A DNA stretch of 64,000 bases from Lentinula raphanica. Its lineage: Eukaryota > Basidiomycota > Agaricomycetes > Agaricales > Omphalotaceae. A program made the position numbers and the translations under genes. Below, one piece after another: positions 17,488-60,036 of the stretch; within the stretch, counting starts at the first letter, position 1, and each line of letters opens with the position of its first letter. The notes below the pieces were generated by a model. It saw only the letters and a program-made list of their open reading frames with translations, had not been told where the DNA came from and searched no databases. The stretch is taken from positions 310,001 through 374,000 of the forward strand of contig JANVFP010000009.1 in the NCBI GenBank assembly GCA_027919835.1, read 5' to 3'.

Positions 17488-17894
17488 AGTCTGCCTATCA
17501 GTGAAGCGCCACAACCTTTGGTGAGTTCTCCAGATCGAGAGGGGGACGAGTCGGAGAAAACTTTCAATGCATTCGGCGGGCAATTTCTGACATGTTACGT
17601 TTCTTGAACTTTTAGCCCAAGTCGATGCAAGACGGACCTGACGCACAAAATCCCCACTCAGCGGCAAGCTTTCATTCGGTCACCAAATTTCTTAATCATT
17701 GGCGCTTTTACATCTCATGTGCTATGTACCAAGGAATCAAACACGCGGTACTGATAGATGGCAATACCAATCTCGCCTCCCGGGTCCGAGCAGCATCTGT
17801 CGGTGAATCGTCTTCGTAAGTCCTCATCTAACAATCTTAATCAACATTAGATACGTAGAACGAAATCCCAAGCAAAACAACCCACCTCTATACT

Positions 17895-18638
17895 TCAAAC
17901 AAAGGACGTCCTTCATGTTCCGTATGTTGCGTTCCCCGACTCGCACGAAGCTTTCCAAGCTCTGCTCCCAAAACTAACCTGCCTTTCAGATGCCCATCAC
18001 TGGAAAGCTTAACATCATTCGCCCCATACATACATGCGTTCTCGTCGTGAAGTGTTTCAATTGACCGGCAGGATATGAAGTATGCGAAGGGAGGACCCAA
18101 GGCGGCTGAAGAAGGGTGATCCCAGGGAAACGCTTGAGTTGCAACATGTAGGTACACGAACTTGTAATCGTTATCGCGATGATCGTGAAGAAAGTGAGGT
18201 CTAGCGAGAGGCAGGAATTTGGCGAAAAGGTCTTTGGCTTCCTGGTCCCCCAAAATCGAGACGTGTGTTCCTTGGAGAGGCGGAGTTTGTACTTTTACTA
18301 AACAGTATCTCGTTGTCGACGCGTCTATGTCCCAAGGATCGAACAATATTTGGTCTGGATCCGAGACAGAGCCTGTGTGCAATGCAGAATTGCTATGGGT
18401 TCCAGGTCCACTGTTACTACCAGCAGCCTAGTAGAGGGATTACAACAAAGTTCCATTGCACGCTACGGCAAATGTGACTCACAAATACCTGAGTTTGCTG
18501 TTGATGATTATTGGTAGAAAGGTGTTTAGGAGGGGGCATAATTGGAGGAGTATGTGGAGGAGGAGGAGCAACAACGATGCAAACCAGCGCCAGGATCATA
18601 AGGAGACAAGCTGTACTTCTTGTACTGACTCCGGACAT
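17895..18638 (-). CDS. Small single-pass membrane protein, tandem copy 1
   Basis: Unrecognised. Exon 1 (18638-18489) codes MSGVSTRSTACLLMILALVC and a Pro-rich stretch APPPPHTPPIMPPPK, a signal-anchor followed by a flexible stalk. Exon 2 (18427-17979) codes a hydrophilic domain starting AAGSNSGPGTHSNSALHTG and containing DPWDIDAST, HFLHDHRDNDYKFVYLHV and FAYFISCRSIETLHDE. A third tiny exon (17910-17895) would end the protein in RTSFV, about 204 residues. Reading through without that splice ends instead at 17888. Topology suggests a type II membrane or secreted protein. The promoter of this copy was replaced by the duplication junction, so its expression is uncertain. Confidence 0.65.
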
Positions 18639-19071
18639 ATTTTTGAGCTTTGGAAGGCGCGGTAAGTCTGCCTATCAGTGAAGCGCCACAACCTTTGGTG
18701 AGTTCTCCAGATCGAGAGGGGGACGAGTCGGAGAAAACTTTCAATGCATTCGGCGGGCAATTTCTGACATGTTACGTTTCTTGAACTTTTAGCCCAAGTC
18801 GATGCAAGACGGACCTGACGCACAAAATCCCCACTCAGCGGCAAGCTTTCATTCGGTCACCAAATTTCTTAATCATTGGCGCTTTTACATCTCATGTGCT
18901 ATGTACCAAGGAATCAAACACGCGGTACTGATAGATGGCAATACCAATCTCGCCTCCCGGGTCCGAGCAGCATCTGTCGGTGAATCGTCTTCGTAAGTCC
19001 TCATCTAACAATCTTAATCAACATTAGATACGTAGAACGAAATCCCAAGCAAAACAACCCACCTCTATACT

Positions 19072-19815
19072 TCAAACAAAGGACGTCCTTCATGTTCCGT
19101 ATGTTGCGTTCCCCGACTCGCACGAAGCTTTCCAAGCTCTGCTCCCAAAACTAACCTGCCTTTCAGATGCCCATCACTGGAAAGCTTAACATCATTCGCC
19201 CCATACATACATGCGTTCTCGTCGTGAAGTGTTTCAATTGACCGGCAGGATATGAAGTATGCGAAGGGAGGACCCAAGGCGGCTGAAGAAGGGTGATCCC
19301 AGGGAAACGCTTGAGTTGCAACATGTAGGTACACGAACTTGTAATCGTTATCGCGATGATCGTGAAGAAAGTGAGGTCTAGCGAGAGGCAGGAATTTGGC
19401 GAAAAGGTCTTTGGCTTCCTGGTCCCCCAAAATCGAGACGTGTGTTCCTTGGAGAGGCGGAGTTTGTACTTTTACTAAACAGTATCTCGTTGTCGACGCG
19501 TCTATGTCCCAAGGATCGAACAATATTTGGTCTGGATCCGAGACAGAGCCTGTGTGCAATGCAGAATTGCTATGGGTTCCAGGTCCACTGTTACTACCAG
19601 CAGCCTAGTAGAGGGATTACAACAAAGTTCCATTGCACGCTACGGCAAATGTGACTCACAAATACCTGAGTTTGCTGTTGATGATTATTGGTAGAAAGGT
19701 GTTTAGGAGGGGGCATAATTGGAGGAGTATGTGGAGGAGGAGGAGCAACAACGATGCAAACCAGCGCCAGGATCATAAGGAGACAAGCTGTACTTCTTGT
19801 ACTGACTCCGGACAT
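19072..19815 (-). CDS. Small single-pass membrane protein, tandem copy 2
   Basis: Same gene as the copy 1,177 bp to the left, with exons 19815-19666, 19604-19156 and 19087-19072. This copy keeps the unduplicated upstream flank (beyond 19841), so it is the likelier expressed one. Because of that flank an additional in-frame ATG at 19851 exists, which would add MRLLPRLPKLKN before the membrane segment. The copies differ in their possible starts for this reason only. Function unknown. Confidence 0.65.
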
Positions 19816-20295: not shown

Positions 20296-20610
20296 TCTTA
20301 AAGATTCGCTAGCCGCCGACTATACAAATACGAAGTGAGTCTTCAACGATATGATACGAGTTCCATTAGTATGTACCTATACAAATACGAAGTGAGCTAG
20401 AGATGTAGTGTGAGTAAAGTAGCATATAGCGATGTAAGATAGGATACTCACTCTTCAACGATATGATACGAGTTGAAGAGTGGTAATACAGAATATCGAC
20501 TTAAATACCCTAAACGAGAGACCAAACAAGCCAACACACCGATCTTTCCCATTACTATGTCACACCACCGCGACTATATCGTCGACACGGAATATACCAA
20601 AATCCTAACA
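20296..20610 (-). repeat. 3' LTR of the Copia element
   Basis: 315 bp, matches 28151-28465. The pol stop codon (TAG at 20605-20607) lies inside the first bases of this LTR (TGTTAG). Confidence 0.95.
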
Positions 20611-22383
20611 CTCCCCCTGGCGACGATACCACCAGTCAAGACCCAATGCCCGTACGAATCGTTGGTGTAGATCCTTCGACAGAGATTTCGTCATAAGATC
20701 CGCCACGTTGTCTTCAGATGCGACCGGAAAGATTTCGACCTTCTTGTCCTCGACTTCGTCGCGAATGAAATGCAAACAAACGTCGATAGCTTTCGAGACG
20801 CTATGTTCTCGAGTGGTTTCGGATAGGCTAATGGCACCAAGGGAGTCGCTGAGAATACGCATAGGAATGTTGCCGCCAAGTTCAACTTCCGACAGCCAGC
20901 TGTTAAGCCAGACCGCTTGCTGAACGCCTCGTGCAAGCGCAACATATTCTGCTTCCGTCGATGACATGGCAGTGATCGATTGAGGCTTCGAAGACCAGGA
21001 AACAGGTGATCCGTTGATGAGGAAGACATATCCGGAGACCGACCGTCGGGTATGTGGATTACTGGCCCAGTCCGAGTCGACGTACCCAATCGGTTTGATG
21101 GTATCTTTGCACTCGAGCTTTCGATATTTGATTCCGTAGTTGATCGTGTGCTTGATATATCGACAAAGTTTGATCAACAGTTCCCAGTGTTCCCGAGTTG
21201 GCTGATTCTGCACCGAAGATAGACTAGAACAAGCGAAGACGATATCTGGATGGGTAGAAGAGGCGATCCACCAACAGCAGCCAAGGATGCGACGGTAGTG
21301 TTTGTCTTTCATGAACTTGGCGTCTTCATCAGAGTATGAAGGAGATGGAATGACGTGATATTTTGGAGGGAGAGGAGTATCGATAGGATAGAGTGAGTCC
21401 CAAAGGCCAAAATATTTGAGCGCGTTTTCAACGAAGGGAGCTTGAGAGACGCCGATGCTTCCATCTTCGAAATATTCCAGAGTTAGACCAACCAGAAACT
21501 TCTTATCCTTTACGTCCTTCCAATCCCACCGGTCAAAGTCTTTCATAGACTTTTCAGCTTCAGCGTCGGATGATGCAGCAGACCAGATGTCATCGGTATG
21601 CACGGAGTGAATCGAGTGGGCGCCAGTAACAGGATCTTTGCGAAAACAAATACACGGATCAGCCCTCGAGGATTTGAAACCAATACGGTGAGCTTCGTTC
21701 TTGAGTTCCTTGAACCAAATATGACCAGCCTGAGCGAGACCGTACAGCGGCTTTTTCATCAGGCATACTTTACTTTCCTCCCCCTGCCTGACGAAACCGG
21801 TGACTTGATTCATGTAGATCTTCAGATTTTCAGGTAAGGAACTGTTCAAATAGGCTGACGAAAAATCCCATTGACGAGTAGACCATCCTAGCGCGGCTGC
21901 ACATGCGATGAGAATCCTGGCAGATTCCATACGAGCGACCATCGACCAGCTTTTGTCGAAGTCCAGCCCAGGCCGTTGCATATCACCTCTAGCCACCCAT
22001 CTCGCCTTTCGCGCCAAAATCTCTCCTTTCCCGTCGACTTTAAGATCGTAGACCCACATGCCGCTAAGGACCTTCGTATCGAGAGGACGATCAACCAATT
22101 CCCAGCAATGACGATCTACGAGGGAGTCATATTCCTTTTGCATCGGTGGTCTCCAAAGATCTGGCTCGGACATGGCTTGATCGTAGCGTTTAGGGACAGG
22201 CTTGGCAGTTTGTCCGGCACCTTTGACAATGCTCGCAAGGATCATTATATTGGCCCAGTCCTCACGATTATCCCTTGCTCGTCGTTCATCTTCCTCGTAC
22301 TCGCGGGAACGTTGGAGAGCTTGGGATGGTGCGGAGTTATGCGAGGACCGACGAAGAATGATACCTTCTTCATCCACAGGATA
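20605..22383 (-). CDS. Copia pol, downstream half: reverse transcriptase and RNase H
   Basis: Continues the Copia polyprotein after the palindromic insert; the first in-frame codon after a plausible CACAG acceptor is TAT at 22383. RT landmarks are WVARGDMQRPGLDF, WDFSSAYLNSSLPE, LYGLAQAGHIWF and VHTDDIW, the last replacing the usual YVDD. RNase H landmarks are GYVDSDWASNPHTRRS and AMSSTEAEYVALA. The frame is open throughout, about 590 residues, so this half appears intact. Activity would require removal of the 3-kb insert from the RNA. Confidence 0.93.
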   Translation of the reverse strand, partial: YPVDEEGIILRRSSHNSAPSQALQRSREYEEDERRARDNREDWANIMILASIVKGAGQTAKPVPKRYDQAMSEPDLWRPPMQKEYDSLVDRHCWELVDRPLDTKVLSGMWVYDLKVDGKGEILARKARWVARGDMQRPGLDFDKSWSMVARMESARILIACAAALGWSTRQWDFSSAYLNSSLPENLKIYMNQVTGFVRQGEESKVCLMKKPLYGLAQAGHIWFKELKNEAHRIGFKSSRADPCICFRKDPVTGAHSIHSVHTDDIWSAASSDAEAEKSMKDFDRWDWKDVKDKKFLVGLTLEYFEDGSIGVSQAPFVENALKYFGLWDSLYPIDTPLPPKYHVIPSPSYSDEDAKFMKDKHYRRILGCCWWIASSTHPDIVFACSSLSSVQNQPTREHWELLIKLCRYIKHTINYGIKYRKLECKDTIKPIGYVDSDWASNPHTRRSVSGYVFLINGSPVSWSSKPQSITAMSSTEAEYVALARGVQQAVWLNSWLSEVELGGNIPMRILSDSLGAISLSETTREHSVSKAIDVCLHFIRDEVEDKKVEIFPVASEDNVADLMTKSLSKDLHQRFVRALGLDWWYRRQGEC

Positions 22384-25300
22384 CTGTGAAGCTTTTGTAA
22401 AAAGACCTGATGAGTTATCCAGGAGCTTTTGAAAATAGTTGTGACGACACAGAGGGGGCTCCGGAAATGGCTCCGGGGGGTGGGCATGCCTATCACCACC
22501 TGTCACATCTGACCTATATTTACTGTTTTGGGTAATTAATAATTATCCAGATATTAAATAAGCGGTACATTTGTAAAAAATCCTGATAAACTATAAAAAT
22601 TCAAAAAAACCCAAAAAAACCTAATTAGGTCAAATCGGGGTATGTAAACAAAATAGCCTTATATGGTAAAAAATGCTGTAGGATCTATCTAGGTGCTAAA
22701 AATAGCCAAAAAATCACTGAAAATGCTAAAAATATGTAGGAATGGTATATAGCCTATTGCAGATCCAGGCATCCAAAAATTACCAAAAAAGGAAATTTTT
22801 GATGATGATGTCATCTTGTAGCAAAAAATCTGAAAAAAATCCTAAAAATAGTCAAAAAATTCAGGGGTGCCTTGTTGGCCCTGAAAATGCAAAATAAAAA
22901 AAAAATACGCGACAAGTGTAAAAATTTTTGTTACTCCAAATCATACCAAATCCACTATATAGTCAGTATATATAATGTATATGCTATATTTAGCATCCTA
23001 GTACCCTCATTGGGCTAAAAATAGAACTTGATCTCATCTGGTAGCAAAAAATCTGAAAAAATCATAAAAAATACTCAAAAAATTCAGGGGTGCCTCATTG
23101 GCCCTGAAAATGCAAAATAAAAAAATTTACACGATACAATTGAAAAACAACATCATTCCAAATCTTATCAAATTTACTATATAGTTAGTATATATTATGT
23201 ATATACTATTTATAGCATCCCTAGTATCCTCAATCACTTATATCACTCAAGAATCCTACCAAACTGACAACATTGAGTAAATGTAATGTACATGGTATTT
23301 TTAGCACACCTAGTACCCTTAAAAACTCAGAACAATTTATATCACTCAATATGTTCAGTATACTTAGTACTCATCACATCTAACACACTTAAACTCGGAA
23401 CAGTACTTATATGTATCATACTTAACACAGTTGGCAATGAAAATACTCAAAACAGTGTTATCAGTCACTATACTTAACACACTTAACAGTCAAAAAGTCG
23501 GAATAATGTTACTTGATATACATAACACACTCATTGTTATACTACAACACACTTATAACAACGGGTTTTGGGCGCTTATTTGGTGTTTTTGAGTCAAAAT
23601 TCATTAATAGCACACTCAGTAATTTTTGTGTGGGCTCTATATTGTGTCACAATGTTGTCTATATCACTTATCTAGATACAATTCAGAAAACTTGAAAATT
23701 CAACCTGTGGGGCTGGCTATATTGTGATCTTTTGAAATATAACAGTGTTTTATGTAAATGTCAATGCATATGTCCATGTAATGCAAGTATACTGATGGTG
23801 GTTCATGAGGGAATCACTCCTACAGTCTACTAGAAGTGTCTGGACATGGTTCAGATACTCACTATGACTGTTGGACTCTGTGATACACATGTACATGTTT
23901 CATGCACACTATAGATGTCTACACTTACATGTAACAATAGATGTCATATTCAATGACCCCCATTACAGATCTCTTGGCTGTATCACATAGAATTAGCATA
24001 GAATAGGTTGTAGGATGACTCTTCTCAAGACCCAGTAGCAGTTTGACTTCATAACATGGGTGTATGCATTGACATTTACATAAAACACTGTTATCTCACA
24101 AAAGATCACAATATAGCCAGTCCCAAAAGCTGTAATCTTGAGTTCTCCGGATTGTATCAAGTGTAGTATGATATAAACAACATCCTTACACAATATAGAG
24201 CCCACACAAAAATTATTGAGTGTGCTATTAATGAATTTCGACTCAAAAACACCAAATAAGCGCCCATAAGCGCCCAAAACTCGTTGTTATGAGTGTGTTA
24301 TAGTATAACAATTGTTCCGACTGTTTGACTGTTAGGTATTTCAAGTATAGTGACTGATAACACTGTTCTTAGTATTTTCATTGTCAACTGTGTTAAGTAT
24401 AATACATATAAGTACTGTTATGAGTCTTAGTGTATTAGGTATGATAAGTGCTAAGTGTACTGAACATATTGAGTAATATAAATTGTTCTGAGTTATCAAG
24501 GGTACTAGGTGTGCTAAAAATATCATGTACAATATATTTACTCCCCAAATTATTCAGTTTGGTATGATTCTTGAGTGATATAAGTGATTGAGGGTACTAG
24601 GGATGCTATAAATGGCATATACATGATATATACTGACTGTGTAGTTGATTTGGTATGATTTGGAGTGATGTTGTTTTTCAATTGTGTCGTGTAAATTTTT
24701 TATTTTGCATTTTCAGAGCCAATGAGGCTCCCCTGAATTTTTTGAGTATTTTTTATGATTTCTTCAGATTTTTTGCTATCAGATGAGATCAAGTTCTATT
24801 TTTAGCCCAATAAAGGTACTAGGATGCTAAATATAGTATATACATCATATATACTGACTGTATAGTGGATTTGGAATGATTTGGAGTGATAAAATTTTTT
24901 ACACTTGTCGCGTATTTTTTTTTATTTTGCATTTTCAGGGCCAACAAGGCACCCCTGAATTTTTTGACTATTTTTAGGATTTTTTTCAGATTTTTTGCTA
25001 CAAGATGACATCATCATCAAAAATTTCCTTTTTTGGTAATTTTTGGATGCCTGGATCTGCAATAGGCTATATACCATTCCTACATATTTTTAGCATTTTC
25101 AGTGATTTTTTGGCTATTTTTAGCACCTAGATAGATCCTACAGCATTTTTTACCATATAAGGCTATTTTGTTTACATACCCCAATTTGACCTAATTAGGT
25201 TTTTTTGGGTTTTTTTGAATTTTTATAGTTTATCAGGATTTTTTACAAATGTACCGCTTATTTAATATCTGGATAATTATTAATTACCCAAAACAGTAAA

Positions 25301-25439
25301 TATAGGTCAGATGTGACAGGTGGTGACAGGCATGCCCACCCCCCGGAGCCATTTCCGGAGCCCCCTCTGTGTCGTCACAACTATTTTCAAAAGCTCCTGG
25401 ATAACTCATCAGGTCTTTTTACAAAAGCTTTACAGTATC
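22380..25439. mobile_element. Palindromic (foldback) element 1, ~3.06 kb, inside Copia pol
   Basis: Two inverted arms of about 1.4 kb (22380-23780 and 24056-25439) face each other around a unique loop of about 275 nt (23781-24055). The termini read GATACTGTRAAGCTTTTG. The arms are AT-rich and noncoding. A possible 2-bp target duplication (AG) is visible. On the host coding strand the ends supply GTAAAG (25433) and CTTCACAG (ending 22384), so a 3,050-nt GT-AG intron would join GAT ACT to TAT CCT in frame. Similar in arms and loop to the element at 56603-59648. Confidence 0.9.
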
Positions 25440-28070
25440 AGCTGCTTCATCCTGGTGTTGGATTATGTCTTCATCAAGATTAACGATATCGTCGGCGAGA
25501 TCATCAGGAGATGGTGGGTCAAGAACATCGTTGGGCAGGTCGTTGTCGTCGGAAGTCGTCAAAGGGAGAGGGTAGGACTTCGAAGATTCTGATATAGTGC
25601 GTATTGGAAGACCTTCGTCGAATTCTGCGGATCTAACGGGAAAAATATGTTTTCTTGCTGGGTCCCATACACGCCAGCCTCTGCAATCCCAGTAGCCCAC
25701 TAGGAAACCTTCGAATGTTTGCTCCCCCAGTTTACCTTCTCGTCGGTCTAGATCTTTGGCGATAACACGACAACCCCAACGACGCAGGTGAGAAACGTTG
25801 ACCTTGGCGTGTTCGGGATACCACGATTGGATCGGGACGACGCCAGGAACCCGTGAAGTCGGAACCATACCAGAGATGTAGCAAAAAGCCTCCGCTGCCT
25901 CTGCCCAAAATCTCCAATCAAGGCCCGAATCTTCGATCATTGCACGCACTCCCTCGATGACCGTACGATTTGCGCGTTCGACAACGCCGTTAGCAGCCGA
26001 GGAGTTGGTAGGTACCTTTTTGACAATGATGCCACGCGACGCTGCCCAGTCGTCCATGGCCTTGTTGTCGAATTCACGACCTAAGTCTATTCGGATGCGT
26101 TTTACCGACTTCCCCATCTGCTTCTCTGCTTTGTCCACGAACCGTATGACTAGGATGAGAATCTTGGGAGCTTCCTTGGTATCGGAGAAGGATGGCGTAG
26201 GAACACCGCTGGCATCGTCCACAGCCAGCATCATATACCAAGCTCCACCAAGACTCATGGTTCTGGATTTGCCCCAAAGATCGAGATGAATGCGGAAGAG
26301 GACCTCAGTAGCAGGAGTTACGATGGAGTCAAAGGGACGACGGGTCGGTTTTGCGTGAAGGCAAGGTTTGCATTTGCCATTAAGGCTCGAGTCTGTGATA
26401 TCCAGTCCGTCAACGAGGTCTCGCTTCTTCATCAATGCAATGACGTTCGTGTTGATATGAGCAAAACGCGTGTGCCACATAGCCAGTGAGCAAGGTTTTC
26501 AGAGAGATCTGCCACCGGAAGCAATGGAGATGCCAGTTGCGAGAGCTTGTCCAATGACCATATCAACCTGATAAAGATGATGACCTCCTCGATTAGCAGC
26601 TAATTTGCCGTCAACGATGACTTTGCCATTTCTAGGATCTATGACGCTAAGCACACCACTCCCCCAAGATCCGATGAAACCTTTGGCGTCGAATGCAGGG
26701 ATAGAAAGGAGGTTCATGGCAAAGGATGGAGTATAAAGAGCAGCCATTTTCAGCGTACGCGTAGAACCGTCAGAGTTTTTCACGTTGAATTGAACCACCC
26801 CGAAACCTTCGATAGCAAACTTCCCAGCATCGCCATTGGTGGCCATACGGCCGTAAGACTGGCGAGGTGTGAAGGAAAGAAAGAGATCCCTGTCGCAGAT
26901 ACAGTTTTCCGAGGCGGCACTATCGAGGAATGTGGGGGAATAACGCAATGATTCATTCGGAACTGCTAAGACATAATTATACTGGTACGGTATGGTATTC
27001 CCCTCACTGCTCTCGCTGACATTACCCTTTAGAACGGAAGGAGCCTCCCTTGGATGTCTAAAGGATAACGCATCAGCTTTAGTAGCAAGAGCGTGGAAGA
27101 GTACCATACCGCCGGTGTCAGATCCCATGTCGACGACGGTGGAAAGAGTGGCAGGCGGTACGGAGGAAGCCGCGGCAAACGACAATGACCCGGCAGTTGT
27201 CGCAGCTGCCATATGAGTGGGAGGTTTCCAACCAGGAGGACCTTGACCTTGTTTCCCGCCTCCAACAGCGTAACATCTGGGCTTCGAGTGTCCACGACGG
27301 CCACAATTGGCGCAATAGAGGACATTGTTACGACGATTATTGGTAGAATTAGCGAGGGCGGCAGGAACTGGCTGAGACGCGTCGACAGTATCGTTGATAA
27401 CATCTTTGCGGAGCTGGATCTCGATGAGACTGGAGTAGATCTCTGCAAATGGCTTTCCGGCGTAGTTCTGGATGATCCACGCATACGATTCCGACGGAGG
27501 CAAACTCGTCAGGAACTGAGATGCGAGATCTTCATCCGTGATGGAGCATCCGACCTCATTGGCCTCAGACCTCAAACGTTCAAGCTTACTGAAGTAAACA
27601 TCGAAGCGATCGCCTTCAGCGAAACGGAGAGCTTTGAAGCGTTCTTTGGCGATGGTCTGAGCAGCGCTTGTCCTCGGATTGAATTTAGCGAGGATCTTGT
27701 TCCACATTTCGACGGCGGTTTGGTTAGGATTGAGGCCGATACCGCGAGGATCTTTAACGTTGAGATAAATGATAGCCGCAATACAAGAGTTACGGAGAAT
27801 CCATTCATCAAGCGTGGGAGTGACAGAGTTATTAGCCGTGGGAGGCGCGATGACAGGCTGTCCGGGAGTCGCTCCAGCGGCGAGAACAGGAGGGGCTACA
27901 TTAACGGAAGGGCGAGGGATAGATCCGTCGATATATCCTTCGAGACCGTAGCCGCGAGCGATACTCACAATAGAGTCGCTGAACGAGAGGAAATTCGAGA
28001 TATTCTCCAATTGGCAAGTTTCTGCGAAAAACTGAATTGGCGGGAGCGAGTTCGAATTCAACATCTTCAC
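25434..28070 (-). CDS. Copia gag-protease-integrase (upstream half of polyprotein)
   Basis: Gag starts at 28070 (MKMLNSNSLPPIQFF). It has a CCHC zinc knuckle CANCGRRGHSKPRC and a protease-like FLDSAASENC (DSA in place of DSG). After GGRSL there is one in-frame TGA at 26499-26501. The frame then continues with the integrase: MWHTRFAHI...CKPCLHAKP (HHCC zinc finger), HLDLWGKS and RIDLGREFD (Asp residues) and GVVERANRT (Glu). The segment ends HQDEAADT at 25434, where the palindromic element begins. The stop codon may be a single point mutation or a readthrough site. Confidence 0.92.
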
Positions 28071-28150
28071 AGATGATGGGTAATAGCGAGTTCAGTAAAA
28101 AGTTCGTTACGAGAGGGAAATGACAGTGTTCGCTATTCTGACTGCGAATC

Positions 28151-28465
28151 TCTTAAAGATTCGCTAGCCGCCGACTATACAAATACGAAGTGAGTCTTCA
28201 ACGATATGATACGAGTTCCATTAGTATGTACCTATACAAATACGAAGTGAGCTAGAGATGTAGTGTGAGTAAAGTAGCATATAGCGATGTAAGATAGGAT
28301 ACTCACTCTTCAACGATATGATACGAGTTGAAGAGTGGTAATACAGAATATCGACTTAAATACCCTAAACGAGAGACCAAACAAGCCAACACACCGATCT
28401 TTCCCATTACTATGTCACACCACCGCGACTATATCGTCGACACGGAATATACCAAAATCCTAACA
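28151..28465 (-). repeat. 5' LTR of the Copia element
   Basis: 315 bp, same sequence as 20296-20610; flanked on the outside by the GGTCG target duplication. Confidence 0.95.
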
Positions 28466-44084: not shown

Positions 44085-44743
44085 TGTCGTGACATCTGAC
44101 ATGTGTGTCATTTTTCCTTATCACATGCACTCCTTTTTGCATCATATGTCCTTGCTACCACCTGATCGTTCTTCATGACTCACTACAATTAGCAATCACA
44201 CCTCCTGCTTCATTATCAATCCTCTTCTCATGCTTTATCATTCTCCTCTCACGTTCTGTCACCATTCTTCCTTCCATTCTCGCACTATGGTACTTGTGTT
44301 ATTGTTCTCCATATCTGTCTCTCGCGCTGTCACTACTCCTTATCTTTCCAACCATTCTCATTCGCTCTTCACCTTTCACATTCTTGCACCACACCTTTTA
44401 CATTCTCGCATTATTGTATTTTCCAATCTTCTTCACTCACGCTGTTTATCTCTACTGCTTTGGGTACTTATTGTTTCACTCAGTATAAATACCACTGTAG
44501 CTAGACTCCTGGTTCCCTATCTCGACCTCTTGGTCATTGGGAACTAGGTTCATATCTGTATCCTACTCATACTCAATACTACTAACTTGGTCATTGGGAA
44601 CTAGCTTGTCTTTTCCTTCTGAGCCCTAGTGATTGGCCCTTCGTGCCCTCATTGCCCCTGAGATCAGCCTCCCCCTTACCCTGTATAGGGTTGTGCTTGT
44701 ACTTGTGCTTGTGTCACCCCTTTGTGCTAACTCCTTTGGGACA
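44085..44743 (+). mobile_element. Solo LTR of a Gypsy-type element (659 bp)
   Basis: Begins TGTCGTGACATC and ends TTTGGGACA (TG...CA). It is flanked by the 5-bp direct repeat CGTCC (44080-44084 and 44744-44748) and splits a Copia relic. Its last ~230 bp reappear inverted at 44849-45080. Confidence 0.88.
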
Positions 44744-44848
44744 CGTCCAGGAAGTATTCGAGGGTGAGTCCAACCAGAAATTTCTTCTCCTTGACATCTT
44801 TTAAGTCCCATTTCCCAAAGTCCTTCATTGATTTCTCAGCCTCTTCAT
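44744..44848 (-). pseudogene. Copia relic, continuation after the solo LTR
   Basis: Continues the RT coding remnant broken at 44084, matching about 21475-21560 of the intact Copia. It ends where the inverted Gypsy LTR fragment starts. Confidence 0.8.
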
Positions 44849-45080
44849 TGTCCCGAAGGAGTTAGCACAAAGGGGTGACACGAGCACAAGCACAAGCACA
44901 ACCCTATACAGGGTAAGGGGGAGGCTGATCTCAGCGGCAATGAGGGCACAAAGGGCCAATCACTAGGGCTCAGAAGGAAAAGACAAGCTAGTTCCCAATG
45001 ACCAAGTTAGTAGTATTGAGTGTGAGTAGGATACAAATACAAACCTAGTTCCCAATGACCAAGAGGTCGAGATAGGGAAA
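44849..45080 (-). repeat. Truncated 3' LTR of the Gypsy relic
   Basis: Reverse complement of about 44512-44743 of the solo LTR; begins TGTCCCGAAGGAG on the plus strand. Confidence 0.85.
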
Positions 45081-48918: not shown

Positions 48919-49250
48919 CACAAGGCTCTTCTTTGTTTCCGGTTTCTGAGTAAGCGGTAGAGGGGTGGGGCATCATCTCGCAAGTCCTCCATTTCATCAG
49001 CAGTTGGTGTTGGCAATGGAACATGTTCTGGATTGATTTCTAGTAGATCTAAAGTGGTTCCCCCTACGTTAGCCACTTGGGGTTCTAGTACTTCCTCAAT
49101 AACCATGGGGTAGGCTGATTTTGATTGTACTAAGATACGGCCCTCCTTCCAGTTGATGTTTGGATTTACTTTCTGAAGTCAGGGTAACCCAAGGATTATA
49201 TCATCTGATCCTAGGTTGGTGACTAAGTATTCAAGAAGCTGTGGCATGTT

Positions 49251-49532
49251 CATCAGGAAAAATATTCTCATCTCTAGAGTCCCCAGAGATACCCCCCAAT
49301 TCCTAGGTAGTCTCAGAGAGCCTAGAGTATCTGAGTTCTTTGAGGCTTCTAAAAGTTCTCTGGGTGCTTTCTAGTGCTTTCTAGTGCTTTCTGGTGCTTT
49401 CAGATGCTTTCAGGATCTTTCAGGATCTCTAGGATGTTTTTTGATCTTTCAAAGCTCACAAAAATCTCTGAGCAGCCTAGGAATTGGGGGGTATCTCTAG
49501 GGACTCTAGAGATGGAAATATTTTTCCTGATG
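49251..49532. mobile_element. CATCAGG-type MITE (copy B, 282 bp)
   Basis: Inverted terminal repeats of about 57 bp starting CATCAGGAAAAATATT, internal ~10-bp GCTTTCTGGT-like repeats, TT duplication on both sides. Confidence 0.92.
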
Positions 49533-49678
49533 TTCTGATCTATTGTAGAAAGGAGTCTTGCCGAATGAGTAATTTTCCCTGCTGTGTTTGGTGTGCCATC
49601 AATATTGTAAAGAGTGATTGGTTTTGGAAGAGGTCGAGTAATGATTCAATGTTGATCTATAAAGTGCTGGTGTATAAA

Positions 49679-49950
49679 CATCAGGAAAAATATTTTCATC
49701 TCTAGAGTCCCCAGAGATACCCCCCAATTCCTAGGCTGCTCAGAGATTTTTGTGAGCTTTGAAAGATCAAAAAACATCCTAGAGATCCTGAAAGATCCTG
49801 AAAGCATCTGAAAGCACCAGAAAGCACCAGAAAGCACCCAGAGAATTTTTAGAAGCCTCAAAGAACTCAGATACTCTATGCTCTCTGAGACTACCTAGGA
49901 ATTGGGGGGTATCTCTGGGGACTCTAGAGATGAGAATATTTTTCCTGATG
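49679..49950. mobile_element. CATCAGG-type MITE (copy C, 272 bp)
   Basis: Same family, inverted relative to copy B. AA on both sides; precise removal with one AA restores GLFIHQHF in the Gypsy protease. Confidence 0.93.
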
Positions 49951-50195
49951 AACAGACCAGTTGCTCCAGAGTCAATCATTGCTGCGCTGTTTGTACTCTT
50001 GAATCTGCCTTGTAACTTAATCGGAACACGGAAGTGAGAAGAATCACTTGATTGCATAGAACTGATGGTACACGAGGAAACAGATTGATAGATAGAAGAC
50101 AGTTTAGAGTACAATTCAGGGAACCAGGTGGCAGCCGTGACAGGTTTCCACTTTGAAAATTCTGGCGCAATTCAGAAATCTGATCAGCCAATGGC

Positions 50196-50457
50196 CATCA
50201 GGAAAAATATTCTCAGCTCTAGAGTCCCCAGAGATACCCCCCAATTCCTAGGCTGCTCAGAGATTTTTGTGAACTTTGAAAGATCAAAAAACATCCTAGA
50301 GATTCTGAAAGCATCTGAAAGCATCAGAAAGCACCAGAAAGCACCCAGAGAATTTTTAGAAGCCTCAAAGAACTCAGATACTCTAGGCTCTCTGAGACTC
50401 CCTAGGAATTGGGGGGTATCTCTGGGGACTCTAGAGATGAGAATATTTTTCCTGATG
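50196..50457. mobile_element. CATCAGG-type MITE (copy D, 262 bp)
   Basis: Same family and orientation as copy C. Both termini are intact but the flanking dinucleotides differ (GC and TG), so flanks may have changed after insertion. Confidence 0.9.
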
Positions 50458-54104: not shown

Positions 54105-57100
54105 ATGGCGTCGTCCTCGAAAGGTTCCGCGTCCAAACATCCCGCTGCAAAACCTGTCGGTAATCGCATCTATGGAGTTACCCCTGCTGCCCCTCCTTCG
54201 GCATCATCGTTCACCGACCCTGCTGATGGCCCTTCCCAAGTCTCTTTTGACGCTTCCCTTCGGCTTCTAGGTTCTACACCGCTGGATAAGAATGCTTTGT
54301 TTCTCCCAGCATCCGCAGAAGAATGTTCAGTCTTGGTCAATAACTTTCGTCGTTCCCCTAACTCTAAACCTCCGGCCTTTCACCTGCCTCAGTACGCCGA
54401 TCCAGAGAAGGTACAGTTCAAAGCCATCCTGGACACCATCGACAATTCGCCTGGCCCATCCACCTTCTATCCACCGCAGCTAATCACCACGTGCGAGTTG
54501 TTCTCCAAAGGCCGCCTGTCCACTGGACAGGGCCTTCACTTGTATCAGGCATTGGTGATTCTTCAGCGGGCCTTCGCGAAGATCATGGGTGGTCATCATT
54601 CCAAGTCCGAGAATCGTCGCCGTATTTTGCAGTTTTTGGCGATCCCCAATTTCAAACACTGTCTGGTACGTCTTTCCAGTCTCCTTGACTTGTTCCCGTC
54701 TGACCTGCTTCGGTTTTTCTAGGAGTACTATCACCTATACTGGCATTATACATCCAACTGCCCTCTTTTTGCGCCGATTCTCATCGCGCTAATCTGCGAC
54801 TTCTGCGCGGATCACCTGACTCCGGAGGAGTACACTTCTAAAATCTACGATGGCAAGGCCAGGGATGGGTACGGTATGAGCTCGAAGACTCGTCAACGCG
54901 TGAAGGCAAGTCCCTCCGTGTTTCTAAGTTCGATTCCCACTCATGTCCCCCATAGGGTTACCTGTCCGAGCCCATGTCCCTTAAGCAACTCGCTATTCCT
55001 ATTCCGTTCAACGCTACCACACGACGTGAAGGCCAGATCATTGTGACCATAGCCAGCCGAGGCACCGATATTGACCAAATTCGTCAACCGCGCACCAATA
55101 TAGCGCTGCGACCCGACCCGTCCTCACGTATCGTTGTGCCTTCCAGAGTCCGGTCTGTCCCTAAGGCACCGTTTCCTCCTTCATCTCAGCGACGTCCGCC
55201 CTCCCCAAAGGAAGATGAGTCCAGTTCAGAGGCCTCGTCGCATCATGGTATTTCGGCACCTTCTTCTCCTCAGAGGTTCCCACTCTCGCGATCCCCGGTT
55301 CCCGAAGTGCTGGTAGTCGAGGATGAGGACGATGATGATCCTGATTTGTTTGTACAGCCTCCCGACCCTGTGCCGCCTGGTAAGTTTTTCTCGTGCGCCT
55401 TCCCGCTGCCTGTCACTGAGTTTCCCTTGCCTAGTCACTCGCTTGAGCATTGCGCGGGCAGCCAAAACTAAGCACCTGACCGGGGATGCGGTTACAAAGG
55501 CCTCGGCTCCTCCTCAGAAACGGGAACGAGACCCCATCATCACTGAAGCTGACCCGGTATGTTCTTCCGCTTCGGCTAGGCGCTTTCTCCCTCAGCTGAT
55601 TGATCACCTCTAGCCTGCTAATGAGCCGCCCTCCAAAAAGCGTCGTACCCAGCCCGCAGGTGGAGGGGTAGCTTCAGCCATGCCTATAGCGCCTCCTGAC
55701 GTTCCTCGTCCATCGCCAGTCAAAGTTCCCACACGAATTCAGGAGGGTCCTCCGGACTATTTCGATGACGACGACACGAAAACGACTGGCCATGAAGGTT
55801 TCCTGACCAATCCCGACTTCCATCCAAAAGCGCCTTTTTCACAGCTTATTCGTAAAACGGTCGCCCAGACTCCTCGCGCACCCAAGCTTCCATTCCTCCG
55901 TGCCCCGAAGTGGCAAATTTCTGAAGAGATGAAGAACTTTGGTGCTTTCATCAACTCCGCCGATACTTCCTTTTCTCTTCAGGGGCTAAGTCGGTACAAT
56001 TATCTTGCCTCTCGTCATTTACAGTCTTCCAACAGTTCTACTCTTCCGTCTCCTGAAGCCCTGTATTCACCCAACAACTGCCTGACCTGCCTCACTCGAG
56101 GCGTGGTTTGCGAAGGTGGTTCCAAGTTGGGTGGCGCTTGCGGGCACTGCGATCGTACGCATCGCAGCTGTTCCAATAGTCTCGGTCTGGAGGATCACAA
56201 GGACCGTTTCCTCGCTATTCACAACACGGTTCGAGGTTACCCGACCGGTAAGTCGATTCTTGGTTCCTTCTAATTGGTCCTTTCCTGACACTTCTTAGGC
56301 TACTCCGGCTCTTTAGATCGTTTCCGCGCCACGCTTGATGAAATGGGGCACATTACATCCTCCTTCGAAACCATCTTTAACGATGTTCGTCGTCGTCTGG
56401 CTCTCGACTTGCAAGCAGTCCGGTCGAGTGGCTTTGATTTCAACGTTGTCCTTTCCCAGTGGGTTGATGACAATCCCAACCATCCGCTCGACTATGATCT
56501 ATTGACCTGGCTCGCAACTTTCTTTGGATGGGATTCCGCATGCAACCTCTCCTCCTTCTTGGTCGATCCTAACGATACAGCCCGGCTGGAGCAGCTGATG
56601 TTGTAAAAATACTTTAAAACAAGCTGTGAACTTCACGGTGGTGTATTGTAATCCATACCGTGAACTTCACAGTGCACTAAAAAGTTCACCGGGGCTGCTG
56701 GAATAGCTCCGGGAACCTGCTAAAAATTGCCGGGGGGCCCTCATATAATTCCGAGAGGTCTGTAGATTATTTCCTTTTTGGTTATATTATTTAAATAAAT
56801 GTATATAGGTAAATAAAATATATATAAAATCAGTAAAATACTCAAAAATTAGGAGAAAAATGATTTGCTTAAAAAAAGGAGAAAATAACCTGATTGATAC
56901 ATTACCTTATTTGGTAAGAATACATATAGGGTCCAAATAGGACCCTAAAAATATGGGGAAAAAATCATAAATAATCCAAAAATATACACAGTAGGCAATT
57001 CTATTTTTAGAAGACATATGTCTAGGGTATATATTGGTGCCTGATAATAGAAAAATATCATATGGAATCCAGAATTGGCTAACACAGGGCACTGATTACC

Positions 57101-60036
57101 TCAGGCACATCAAAACTACTCAAAAAGGAAATTGGTCTAAAAATAGAACTTGATGTCATCTTGTAGTAAAAAATCTGAAAAAATCATAAAAAATATTGAA
57201 AAAATTCAGGGGTGCCTCATTGTCCCTGAAAATACAAAATAAAAAAAAATACGCGACAAGTGTAAAAAATTTTATCACTCCAAATTATACTAGATCCTCT
57301 ATTCATTCAATATATCTGATGCACAAGCTATTTTTAGCACCCCCAGTACCCTCAGGCACCTAGGATAGCTTATATCATTCAATATATTCAGCATACTCAA
57401 TGCTTATTATACTTAACATACTTAACAATGAAAAATCTTAAAATAGTATTCATGTGTATTCTACTCAATACACTCAACAATGAAAAATCTCAAAACAGTG
57501 TTCATGTGTATTATACTTAACATACTCAACACACTTAACAATGAAAAAACTCAGAACAGTGCTCATGTGTGTTACACTTAACACACTTCATCAATAAATA
57601 TAATATACTTAACAATCAAAAACTCGGAGTAGTGTTATCACACATTATACTTAACACACTTCATCAGTAAGTATAACATACGTTCAATAGGACATTGTTA
57701 TACTATAACACACTTATAACAACGAGTTTTGGGCGCTTATGGGCGCTTATTTGGTGTTTTTCAGTCGAAATTCATTAATAGCTCACTCAATAATTTTTGT
57801 GTGGGCTCTATATTGTGTCAGGATGTTGTCTATATCATATTCCTCTAGATATAATTCGGAGAACTCGGAAATACAACCTGTGTGGCTAGCTATACTATAA
57901 TCTTTTGTGATATAACAGTGTTTTATGTAAATGACAGTGCATACACCCATGGTATGAAGTCAAACTGCTGCTGGGTCATGAAAAGAGTCATCCTACAACT
58001 TATTCTATGCTAACTCTATGTGATACAGTCAAGAGATCTGTAATGGGGGTCATTGAATATGACATCTATTGTTACATGTAAGTGTAGACATCTATAGTGT
58101 ACATGAAACATGTACATGTGTATCACAGTGTCCAACCTTTATGATAGCTATCTGAATCATGTACAGACACTGCCAGTAGACTGTAGGAGTCCTTTCCTGA
58201 TGGACCAGCATCAGTATACTTGCATTACATGGACATATGCATTGGCATTTATATAAAACACTGTTATATCACAAAAGATTATAGTATAGCTAGCCACACA
58301 GGTTGTATTTTTGAGTTCTCCGAATTACATCTAGAGGAATATGATATAGACAACATCCTGACACAATATAGAGCCCACACAAAAATTATTGAGTGAGCTA
58401 TTAATGAATTTCGACTGAAAAACACCAAATAAGCGCCCATAAGCGCCCAAAACTCGTTGTTATAAGTGTGTTATAGTATAACAATGTCCTATTGAATGTA
58501 TGTTATACTTACTGATGAAGTGTGTTAAGTATAATGTGTGATAACACTACTCTGAGTTTTTGATTGTTAAGTATATTATATTGATTGATGAAGTGTGTTA
58601 AGTGTAATATACTACATGAGCACTGTTCTGAGTTTTTTCATTGTTAAGTGTGTTGAGTATGTTAAGTATAATACACATGAACCCTGTTCTGAGAGTTTTC
58701 ATTGTTAAGTGTGTTATGTGTGTTAAGTATAATACACATGAACACTGTTTCGAGGTTTTTCATTGTTGAGTGTGTTGAGTAGAATACACATGAATACTAT
58801 TCTAAGATTTTTCATTGTTAAGTATGTTAAGTATGATAAGCATTGAGTATGCTGAATATATTGAATGATATAAGCTATTCTAGGTGCCTGAGGGTACTGG
58901 GGGTGCTAAAAATAGCTTGTGCATCAGATATATTGAATGAATAGAGGATCTAGTATAATTTGGAGTGATAAAATTTTTTACACTTGTCGCGTATTTTTTT
59001 TTATTTTGTATTTTCAGGGACAATGAGGCACCCCTGAATTTTTTCAATATTTTTTATGATTTTTTCAGATTTTTTACTACAAGATGACATCAAGTTCTAT
59101 TTTTAGACCAATTTCCTTTTTGAGTAGTTTTGATGTGCCTGAGGTAATCAGTGCCCTGTGTTAGCCAATTCTGGATTCCATATGATATTTTTCCATTATC
59201 AGGCACCAATATATACCCTAGACATATGTCTTCTAAAAATAGAATTGCCTACTGTGTATATTTTTGGATTATTTATGATTTTTTCCCCATATTTTTAGGG
59301 ACCTATTTGGACCCTATATGTATTCTTATCAAATAAGGTAATGTATCAATCAGGTTATTTTCTCCTTTTTTTAAGCAAATCATTTTTCTCCTAATTTTTG
59401 AGTATTTTACTGATTTTATATATATTTTATTTACCTATATACATTTATTTAAATAATATAACCAAAAAGGAAATAATCTACAGACCTCTCGGAATTATAT
59501 GAGGGCCCCCCGGCAATTTTTAGCAGGTTCCCGGAGCTATTCCAGCAGCCCCGGTGAACTTTTTAGTGCACTGTGAAGTTCACGGTATGGATTACAATAC
59601 ACCACCGTGAAGTTCACAGCTTGTTTTAAAGTATCTTTACTGCTACAGGTGGCTGGAGGAGTTCCTCCGCAACAACGCCTCAGCCATCGAGGTCGCTGCA
59701 GACCCGTCGACTTCCTCTCATCCTACCACCGTTCCAACCGTATCTCCATCTTCTCCGGTGGCTTCTACCTCAGTCTTCCAAGAACCCGTACTTCACTCCC
59801 GCCGCCGGCCTAGTGCTGCTATCCCTAGCAATTTCACCTCGGACCTCCCATTCCATACCCCTCCCCCTTCTACCACAGTTGACGAGGAGATGGAAGTTGA
59901 CGAGGGTACTTCTCGAGCTTCGGTAGGGCGTGCTTTATTGACAGAATATGATGACACCGACGACGACGAGGAGGATGACGAAGACGAGCCTGTTGAGATC
60001 GCACCGTCTGCCACTGCATCCAAAACCCGCAAGTAG
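54105..60036 (+). CDS. Large retroelement-associated protein with Zn2Cys6-like cluster; gene split by palindromic element 2
   Basis: Exons 54105-54665, 54723-54905, 54956-55379, 55462-55556, 55614-56247, 56299-56602 and 59649-60036 give about 862 residues. The family is not recognised. The N-terminal half has a globular part (YPPQLITTCELFSKGRLS, EYYHLYWHYTSNCPLF). A Ser/Pro-rich linker with an acidic run follows, then a basic KKRRTQP. The cysteine cluster CLTCLTRGVVC...CGHCDRTHRSC (56079-56172) has C-x2-C-x6-C-x9-C-x2-C-x6-C spacing, matching fungal Zn2Cys6 clusters. A helical region (FETIFNDVRRRLALDLQAV) and an acidic tail close it. Intron 2 uses a GC donor. The last intron (3,046 nt) is the palindromic element; its removal gives LMLWLEEFLRNN in frame. 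Position beside an integrase gene suggests a gag-like or accessory protein of a retroelement. Confidence 0.7.
56603..59648. mobile_element. Palindromic (foldback) element 2, occupying a complete 3,046-nt intron
   Basis: Inverted arms of about 1.35-1.4 kb (roughly 56605-57953 and 58229-59640) surround a ~275-nt loop (57954-58228). Ends read ATACTTTAAAACAAGCTG and the inverse. Arms and loop are clearly related to the element at 22380-25439, although the outer ~300 bp differ. Its left end supplies the GTAAAA donor and the region just beyond the right end the CTGCTACAG acceptor. Without the element only about 20 nt of intron would remain, too short to splice. Noncoding; the short open frames in both arms are mirror copies. 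Confidence 0.88.

Follow-up and report, generated by a model that had tools for sequence, protein, structure and literature searches.

PIF/Harbinger belongs with ISL2EU, Spy, Pangu and Nuwa to the PHIS superfamily of DNA transposons, and in the published accounts its terminal inverted repeats (TIRs) usually begin with A or G and are, in about 93% of cases, shorter than 60 bp (PMC4482050, PMC12730594). Tourist-type miniature inverted-repeat transposable elements (MITEs) are described as non-autonomous, with inverted ends, and as moved by PIF/Harbinger transposase (PMC2836001). Very long inverted repeats are known from the descriptions of Galileo/Foldback of Drosophila, where there are copies with duplications that suggest recombination between copies; Galileo itself is a member of the P-element superfamily. 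It produces a 7-bp target duplication. Among introners, the TIR-derived families combine target duplications and inverted ends with GT-AG close to the termini; some families add codons, and median lengths are 30–654 nt. Pezizomycotina is the only fungal group named among the eight introner-containing groups of the cited survey (PMC9860276). Fungal intervening sequences with inverted-repeat symmetry are also found in the symmetrical sister stwintrons of Hypoxylaceae, which, as reported, are short, spliced and seamless, without flanking duplications, and have inverted repeats of 45–55 nt (PMC8469720). Here we describe a palindromic element of about 3 kb that interrupts a Copia retrotransposon in Lentinula raphanica, within a 64,000-nt stretch of DNA (the window; contig JANVFP010000009.1, positions 310,001 to 374,000). 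It is most readily explained as a non-autonomous, cut-and-paste foldback DNA transposon that was likely mobilised by a PHIS transposase, and we consider this combined interpretation probable. The features of the element, and of a second one in the window, are as follows (window positions):

22375..25444, minus strand (as the Copia gene): foldback palindrome, copy A of subfamily A1, 3,070 nt, reading CAGCTGATACTGTAAAG...CTTCACAGTATCCTGTG on the Copia strand
22368..22374, no strand: left 7-bp target duplication CTTCATC, from comparison of copies
25445..25451, no strand: right 7-bp target duplication CTTCATC, from comparison of copies
23770..24064, no strand: apex loop and innermost stem, about 295 nt, 90–94% alike in family B and in the relatives L055 and L057
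56592..59651, plus strand: second palindromic element, family B, 3,060 nt, with the 7-bp duplication GCTGGAG on either side and a hypothetical intron at 56603-59648

The outer arms of copy A (22380-22904 and 24915-25439, 525 nt) are 99% complementary, and the inner blocks toward the apex 89–93%. Compared with its own reverse complement in steps of 100 nt, the element shows identities of 0.82–1.0, with single bins at 0.64 and 0.79 and apex bins at 0.52–0.56, and since these last are not palindromic, a loop of about 275 nt is right. The two arms of about 1.4 kb around such a loop, as given in the preliminary description, are thus borne out by the arm identities and the self-comparison. Its borders at 22383/25434 have to be moved, since comparison of copies excludes them as element ends and places the real ends at 22375 and 25444, with the target duplications directly outside. 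Complementarity of the arms is far beyond chance, and a chance palindrome is excluded by the 99% arms together with the hundreds of copies. The palindrome is not a part of Copia itself either, as a 77% identical Copia relative (L054) lacks it and shows a collinear empty site (compared by eye). Most of the element therefore consists of inverted terminal repeats, as in foldback TIR DNA transposons, and its predicted fold has 92% of bases paired, with a minimum free energy of -2169 kcal/mol.

The preliminary description had recommended a genome-wide look for other copies, and hundreds of dispersed ends are present in the 49.06 Mb (75 contigs) searched, as is typical of a non-autonomous TIR DNA transposon. 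There are 265 CAGCTG-type ends (three mismatches or fewer), 229 CACAGG-type ends (exact) and 151 of a third set, for which the search pattern itself demanded TGTAARR; the control patterns (reversed for the first two types) gave 0 in each case. In the first DNA search for relatives 40 of 628 candidates were scored, and for family B, where 40 of 585 candidates were scored, at least seven copies are full or nearly full length. Clustering is apparent among the matches listed, for example at 0.6–1.3 Mb of C7.

An exact 7-bp duplication flanks 17 of the 18 copies first compared (L001-L017 and the family B copy of the window), L003 having none. In a larger sample it was present at 24/27 A1 copies, 20/30 A2 copies and the one B copy, and among further copies at 4/5 of family B and 2/2 of family C. 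Overall, 51 of 65 copies carry it, and two of the 14 that do not (L080, L116) differ by a single base; together with the empty site, this indicates a duplication of fixed length. No clear motif was seen among the 45 target duplications of the larger sample. Two pairs of copies have their single duplications in common crosswise, L020 with L024 (in opposite orientation, some 14 kb from each other) and L072 with L074, which suggests recombination between copies. Such crosswise sharing is what would be expected if recombination between opposite copies had rearranged the intervening stretch. Another pair, L010 (A1) and L026 (A2), sits in two copies of one similar sequence, with insertion points that differ by no more than a few bases. 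In three copies that depart from the usual length (L015, L038 and L039) no transposase open reading frame (ORF) of the kind described below was recognised, their internal ORFs not having been scanned against Pfam.

Over their outer 500 nt or so, elements A and B are 0.43–0.55 identical, apart from the last bins. The apex stretch (23770-24064), on the other hand, has an identity of 91% with family B, 90% with L055, 94% with L057 and 94–97% with other A1 copies, as well as 77% over 197 nt with L056, and is common to coding and non-coding relatives. Between families with scarcely alignable outer arms, sharing is greatest in the apex loop and the inner stem, and this module may have been exchanged by recombination or may be functional. 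Rfam gave no match at gathering scores anywhere in the window, and the five matches on 23300-24600 were all sub-threshold (best E 0.63). Because of the terminal inverted arms of about 1.4 kb, the shared apex loop, the CA ends, the 7-bp duplication and the hundreds of dispersed ends, there is good support for assigning the element to the non-autonomous foldback transposons.

A link to PHIS is likely, and comes from relatives with the same ends or arms that carry DDE_Tnp_4 and weak Myb/SANT-like ORFs, as in that superfamily. L055 is a 7.67-kb interval between two CAGCTGAAGCTGTAAGA ends, its inverted ends (730 bp) are 98% alike, and between them lies a DDE_Tnp_4 ORF (E 1.3e-11, above the Pfam cut-off). 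L057 contains a left end that resembles A2, except that GTAAAAC is preceded by three additional bases. It also contains a DDE_Tnp_4 ORF (E 1.1e-6, likewise above the cut-off), accompanied by a segment resembling the A arm (84%) and by the A core (90%). The two elements thus place a transposase of this type with ends shared by the non-coding copies. L056, a 5.6-kb interval, has inverted stretches of 1.57 kb that are 96.5% alike, flanks included; these flanks are inverted copies of one another, so that the palindrome continues beyond the element ends, either from a real rearrangement or as an effect of assembly. The family C arm L050 is 84–88% alike to the ends of L055 and L056 over 440 nt, while for the arm L052 only 105 nt matched, to L056. 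There are 16 DDE matches in the genome. Two coding copies, L118 and L119, were rejected as partners; they have other ends and TAA duplications (by eye) and are therefore ordinary Harbinger-like elements. L120, beside a second DDE match, was also set aside, as no CAGCTG ends were found there.

We infer that a PHIS (PIF/Harbinger-like) transposase and a Myb/SANT-like partner, supplied by relatives such as L055 and L057, would mobilise the element in trans, and that proteins of this type may recognise a shared terminal motif around GTRRA. Several observations weigh against this. Published PHIS groups have target duplications of 0–3 bp according to the sources cited (PMC4482050, PMC12730594), whereas 7 bp were found here at 51/65 non-coding copies. 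The Myb/SANT matches of the second L055 ORF and the weak Myb match of L056 fall below the Pfam cut-off, and the putative Myb-like ORF of L057 has no Pfam match. Among coding copies, none turned up with an intact 7-bp duplication: the flanks of L055 do not match, those of L056 are inverted copies of each other, and for L057 no right end could be located. The elements are also unlike PIF/Harbinger in that their ends begin with CA and the inverted ends are 0.7–1.6 kb long, and unlike Tourist-type MITEs in their size (about 3 kb, with arms of about 1.4 kb) and 7-bp duplication, the contrast in size being drawn against the general size range of MITEs. In a search of the literature no paper was recognised as describing this element, which is not proof of absence.

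A different transposase that makes 7-bp duplications (P-element/Galileo-like or hAT7-like) could instead have moved a foldback transposon of this form, the DDE_Tnp_4 genes being unrelated passengers. The 7-bp duplication, the foldback shape and the exchange of duplications between inverted copies all resemble Galileo as described, and fungal hAT7 elements are reported to make 7-bp duplications (PMC12730594). Against this stand the DDE_Tnp_4 and Myb-like ORFs between the inverted ends of L055, and we regard such an origin as unlikely. Unlike Galileo, no P-type domain (PF21787) was matched in the genome, but this negative is weak and the search uninformative, because the control genomes gave no match either.

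The host of copy A, and the intron that can be drawn across the insertion, have the following coordinates:

20296..28465, minus strand: Copia-type long terminal repeat (LTR) retrotransposon (host), with identical 315-nt LTRs at 20296-20610 and 28151-28465 and a 5-bp duplication GGTCG
26502..28091, minus strand: Copia gag/protease-side ORF (Retrotran_gag_2, Pol_BBD), followed by an in-frame TGA at 26499-26501
25455..26498, minus strand: Copia integrase-side ORF piece (gag_pre-integrs, SH3_retrovirus), upstream of the insertion
20608..22374, minus strand: Copia reverse-transcriptase ORF piece (RVT_2), downstream of the insertion
22384..25433, minus strand: hypothetical GT-AG intron, 3,050 nt, with the donor at 25433 and the acceptor ending at 22384; its splicing is hypothetical

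This Copia copy is young, because its LTRs are identical and flanked by the duplication GGTCG. Its next long matches are 77–78% identical, and the named organisms among the best 22 relatives are Mycena citricolor, Lentinula edodes and Agaricus bisporus. The palindromic element would have jumped into it after the Copia had integrated. Both flanking halves had been described as open, which holds for the parts adjoining the insertion; there is, however, a separate in-frame TGA (26499-26501), outside the palindrome and between the gag/protease-side and integrase-side ORFs of this young Copia. Splicing alone would therefore not demonstrate a working copy, and the suggestion that the retrotransposon could stay functional is not supported.

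An in-frame GT-AG reading across the element (GAT ACT/GTAAAG to TAT CCT, giving DEAADT-YPVDEEG; slashes mark the hypothetical splice sites) was part of the preliminary description, and it is exact and keeps the frame. The minus strand reads ...GATGAAGCAGCTGATACT/GTAAAG...CTTCACAG/TATCCTGTGGATGAAGAAGGT, and the Copia coding strand CAGCTGATACT/GTAAAG...CTTCACAG/TATCCTGTG. GT and AG lie 11 and 9 nt inside the element, and 27 nt (nine extra codons) would stay after hypothetical splicing, 20 from the element and seven from the second target duplication. With the element ends at 22375 and 25444, the DEAADT-YPVDEEG product is therefore the pre-insertion ORF plus nine codons. Copy A in the opposite orientation reads CACAGGATACT/GTGAAG...TTTACAG/TATCAGCTG (20 + 7), A2 in reverse CACAGGATACA/GTAAAG...TTTTACAG/TATCAGCTG, and family C CAGCTGAGGCT/GTAAGA...TCTACAG/CTACGGGTG (20 + 7). 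Family B reads CAGCTGATGTT/GTAAAA...CTACAG/GTG (14 + 7 = 21), and likewise 14 + 7 in reverse, via CAG/CTG. A2 forward has ACTG instead of ACAG, and with it no usable acceptor of its own.

GT thus stands at position 12 in all eight end readings of families A, B and C, without having been demanded by the search, and a phase-compatible AG is present in seven of eight family orientations, which gives the GT-AG near the ends and the kept frame that are seen in introners. In shuffles of the 25-nt termini (20,000 each, scored for a GT..AG pair within 20 nt of both ends), a phase-compatible GTRRR..YAG arose in 2.7–2.8% and any GT..YAG in 24%; the coincidence is not far beyond chance. A CTGT in an inverted repeat yields GT at one end and ACAG at the other, and because it yields both, common descent of the ends is enough to explain their recurrence. 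Under the transposon interpretation, GT and AG would be part of the shared terminal motif and most likely serve transposition, the CTGT of the inverted repeat making them look intron-like. The proposal that the element carries its own splice signals at its inverted ends can be kept in so far as GT and AG are near the ends and the frame is preserved by construction; the sites are 11 and 9 nt inside, and splicing is unsupported.

If the same transposon had retained its ends as working splice sites, it would be a giant introner: the spliceosome would join GATACT to TATCCT and the gene would be nine codons longer. The sum 20 + 7 is divisible by three, so that insertion would be in frame wherever it landed. 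The recurring GT and phase-compatible AG favour this, as do the codons added by some known introner families. Further, the family B copy of the window and three of four further duplication-bearing B copies lie forward in ORFs of at least 140 codons that are still open. The orientation of the insertions gave a mixed result. A single unambiguous ORF of at least 120 codons was present at 22 of 49 duplication-bearing sites (the 45 above plus four additional B copies). Of these 22 insertions, 19 are compatible with splicing in their actual orientation, compared with 10 in the flipped one (11 v 2 among discordant sites, exact p 0.022; 9 v 2, 7 v 2 and 6 v 2 at higher ORF-length cut-offs). When 31 A2-type flanks, each from a single side, were taken as a further sample, eight sites were usable and gave 3 v 3 (with ORFs of 100 codons or more, nine sites and 4 v 3). 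Pooling the samples gives 14 v 5 (hand-calculated p of about 0.06), and the orientation signal is not established. Strand calling by codon score (13 reverse, 6 forward) and ORF orientation at 160 codons or more in A1 and A2 (12 reverse, 4 forward) were not significant.

Coding-like targets, defined by a score of at least 10 with scores trained on five window ORFs, made up 24% of 45 sites as against 17% of 2,000 random window positions. Six of the 16 target ORFs scanned had a Pfam match above cut-off and ten had none; the six were RVT_2, RVT_1/RNase H, Integrase_H2C2, rva_4 (twice) and zf-CCHC, families typical of retroelements, although zf-CCHC, while usual there, is not confined to them. Retrocopied junctions were searched for A, A2 and C. 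For A and A2 there were none at 0–1 mismatch and 12 at two mismatches (control 5), and for C two at one mismatch (control 8). The predicted stem would pair 5/6 of the donor bases and 5/6 of the last intron bases. A2 forward is without an AG, yet L064 is so placed within an ORF, and stop codons block L002, L032, L143 and L150. At about 3 kb, the element is also well outside the median lengths of known introner families (PMC9860276). With no retrocopied junction, paired sites, 24% v 17% coding-like targets and an 11 v 2 excess that was not repeated (3 v 3), the giant introner-like behaviour first proposed is not supported, and we hold it to be quite improbable. The resemblance to stwintrons lies in the inverted-repeat symmetry, the palindrome being unlike them in its flanking duplications, the length of its arms and its hypothetical splicing.

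Very little credence is given to a PHIS-related lineage in which the terminal motif doubles as a splice pair tuned to the length of the duplication (20 + 7 or 14 + 7), which would produce phase-neutral introns of about 3 kb with their ends drawn close by the hairpin, and thereby giant introners in a mushroom-type fungus. The hairpin could also trigger removal from RNA without recognition of splice sites, by analogy with SOS splicing, which excises transposons from metazoan mRNA (PMC13247085), and a predicted transcript that is 92% paired, at near -2169 kcal/mol, would suit such a process. SOS splicing is, however, described in that source for metazoa, with ligation by RTCB, and no retrocopy was found for the GT-AG join (the only join searched); we regard this process as extremely unlikely here. 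On the foldback-transposon interpretation that we prefer, a transcript through the element would form a double-stranded hairpin of about 1.4 kb, for which silencing or degradation would be more probable than splicing.

Other repeats are present in the window. An exact repeat (17488-17787 and 18665-18964) recurs 1,177 bp apart, and two identical 179-aa ORFs on the minus strand, at 17888-18427 and 19065-19604, suggest either that this region was recently duplicated in tandem or that the repeat is an artefact of assembly. At 44513-45079 there is an inverted repeat with 231-nt arms (96%) around 105 nt, the ends of which differ from those of the CAGCTG elements. Nested direct and inverted repeats with a common CCTAGGAATTGGGGGGTATCTC occupy 49238-50457, and are probably another palindromic repeat family.

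Even without splicing, these elements represent an unusual branch of a well-known superfamily, with foldback elements of about 3 kb, hundreds of copies, 7-bp duplications where 0–3 bp are reported, and one apex loop across families with barely alignable outer arms. The spacing of the transposase cuts and the role of the loop become testable. If the splice reading were true, an intron role would be open to a transposon that greatly exceeds the known introner families in length, with a direct bearing on how introns are gained.

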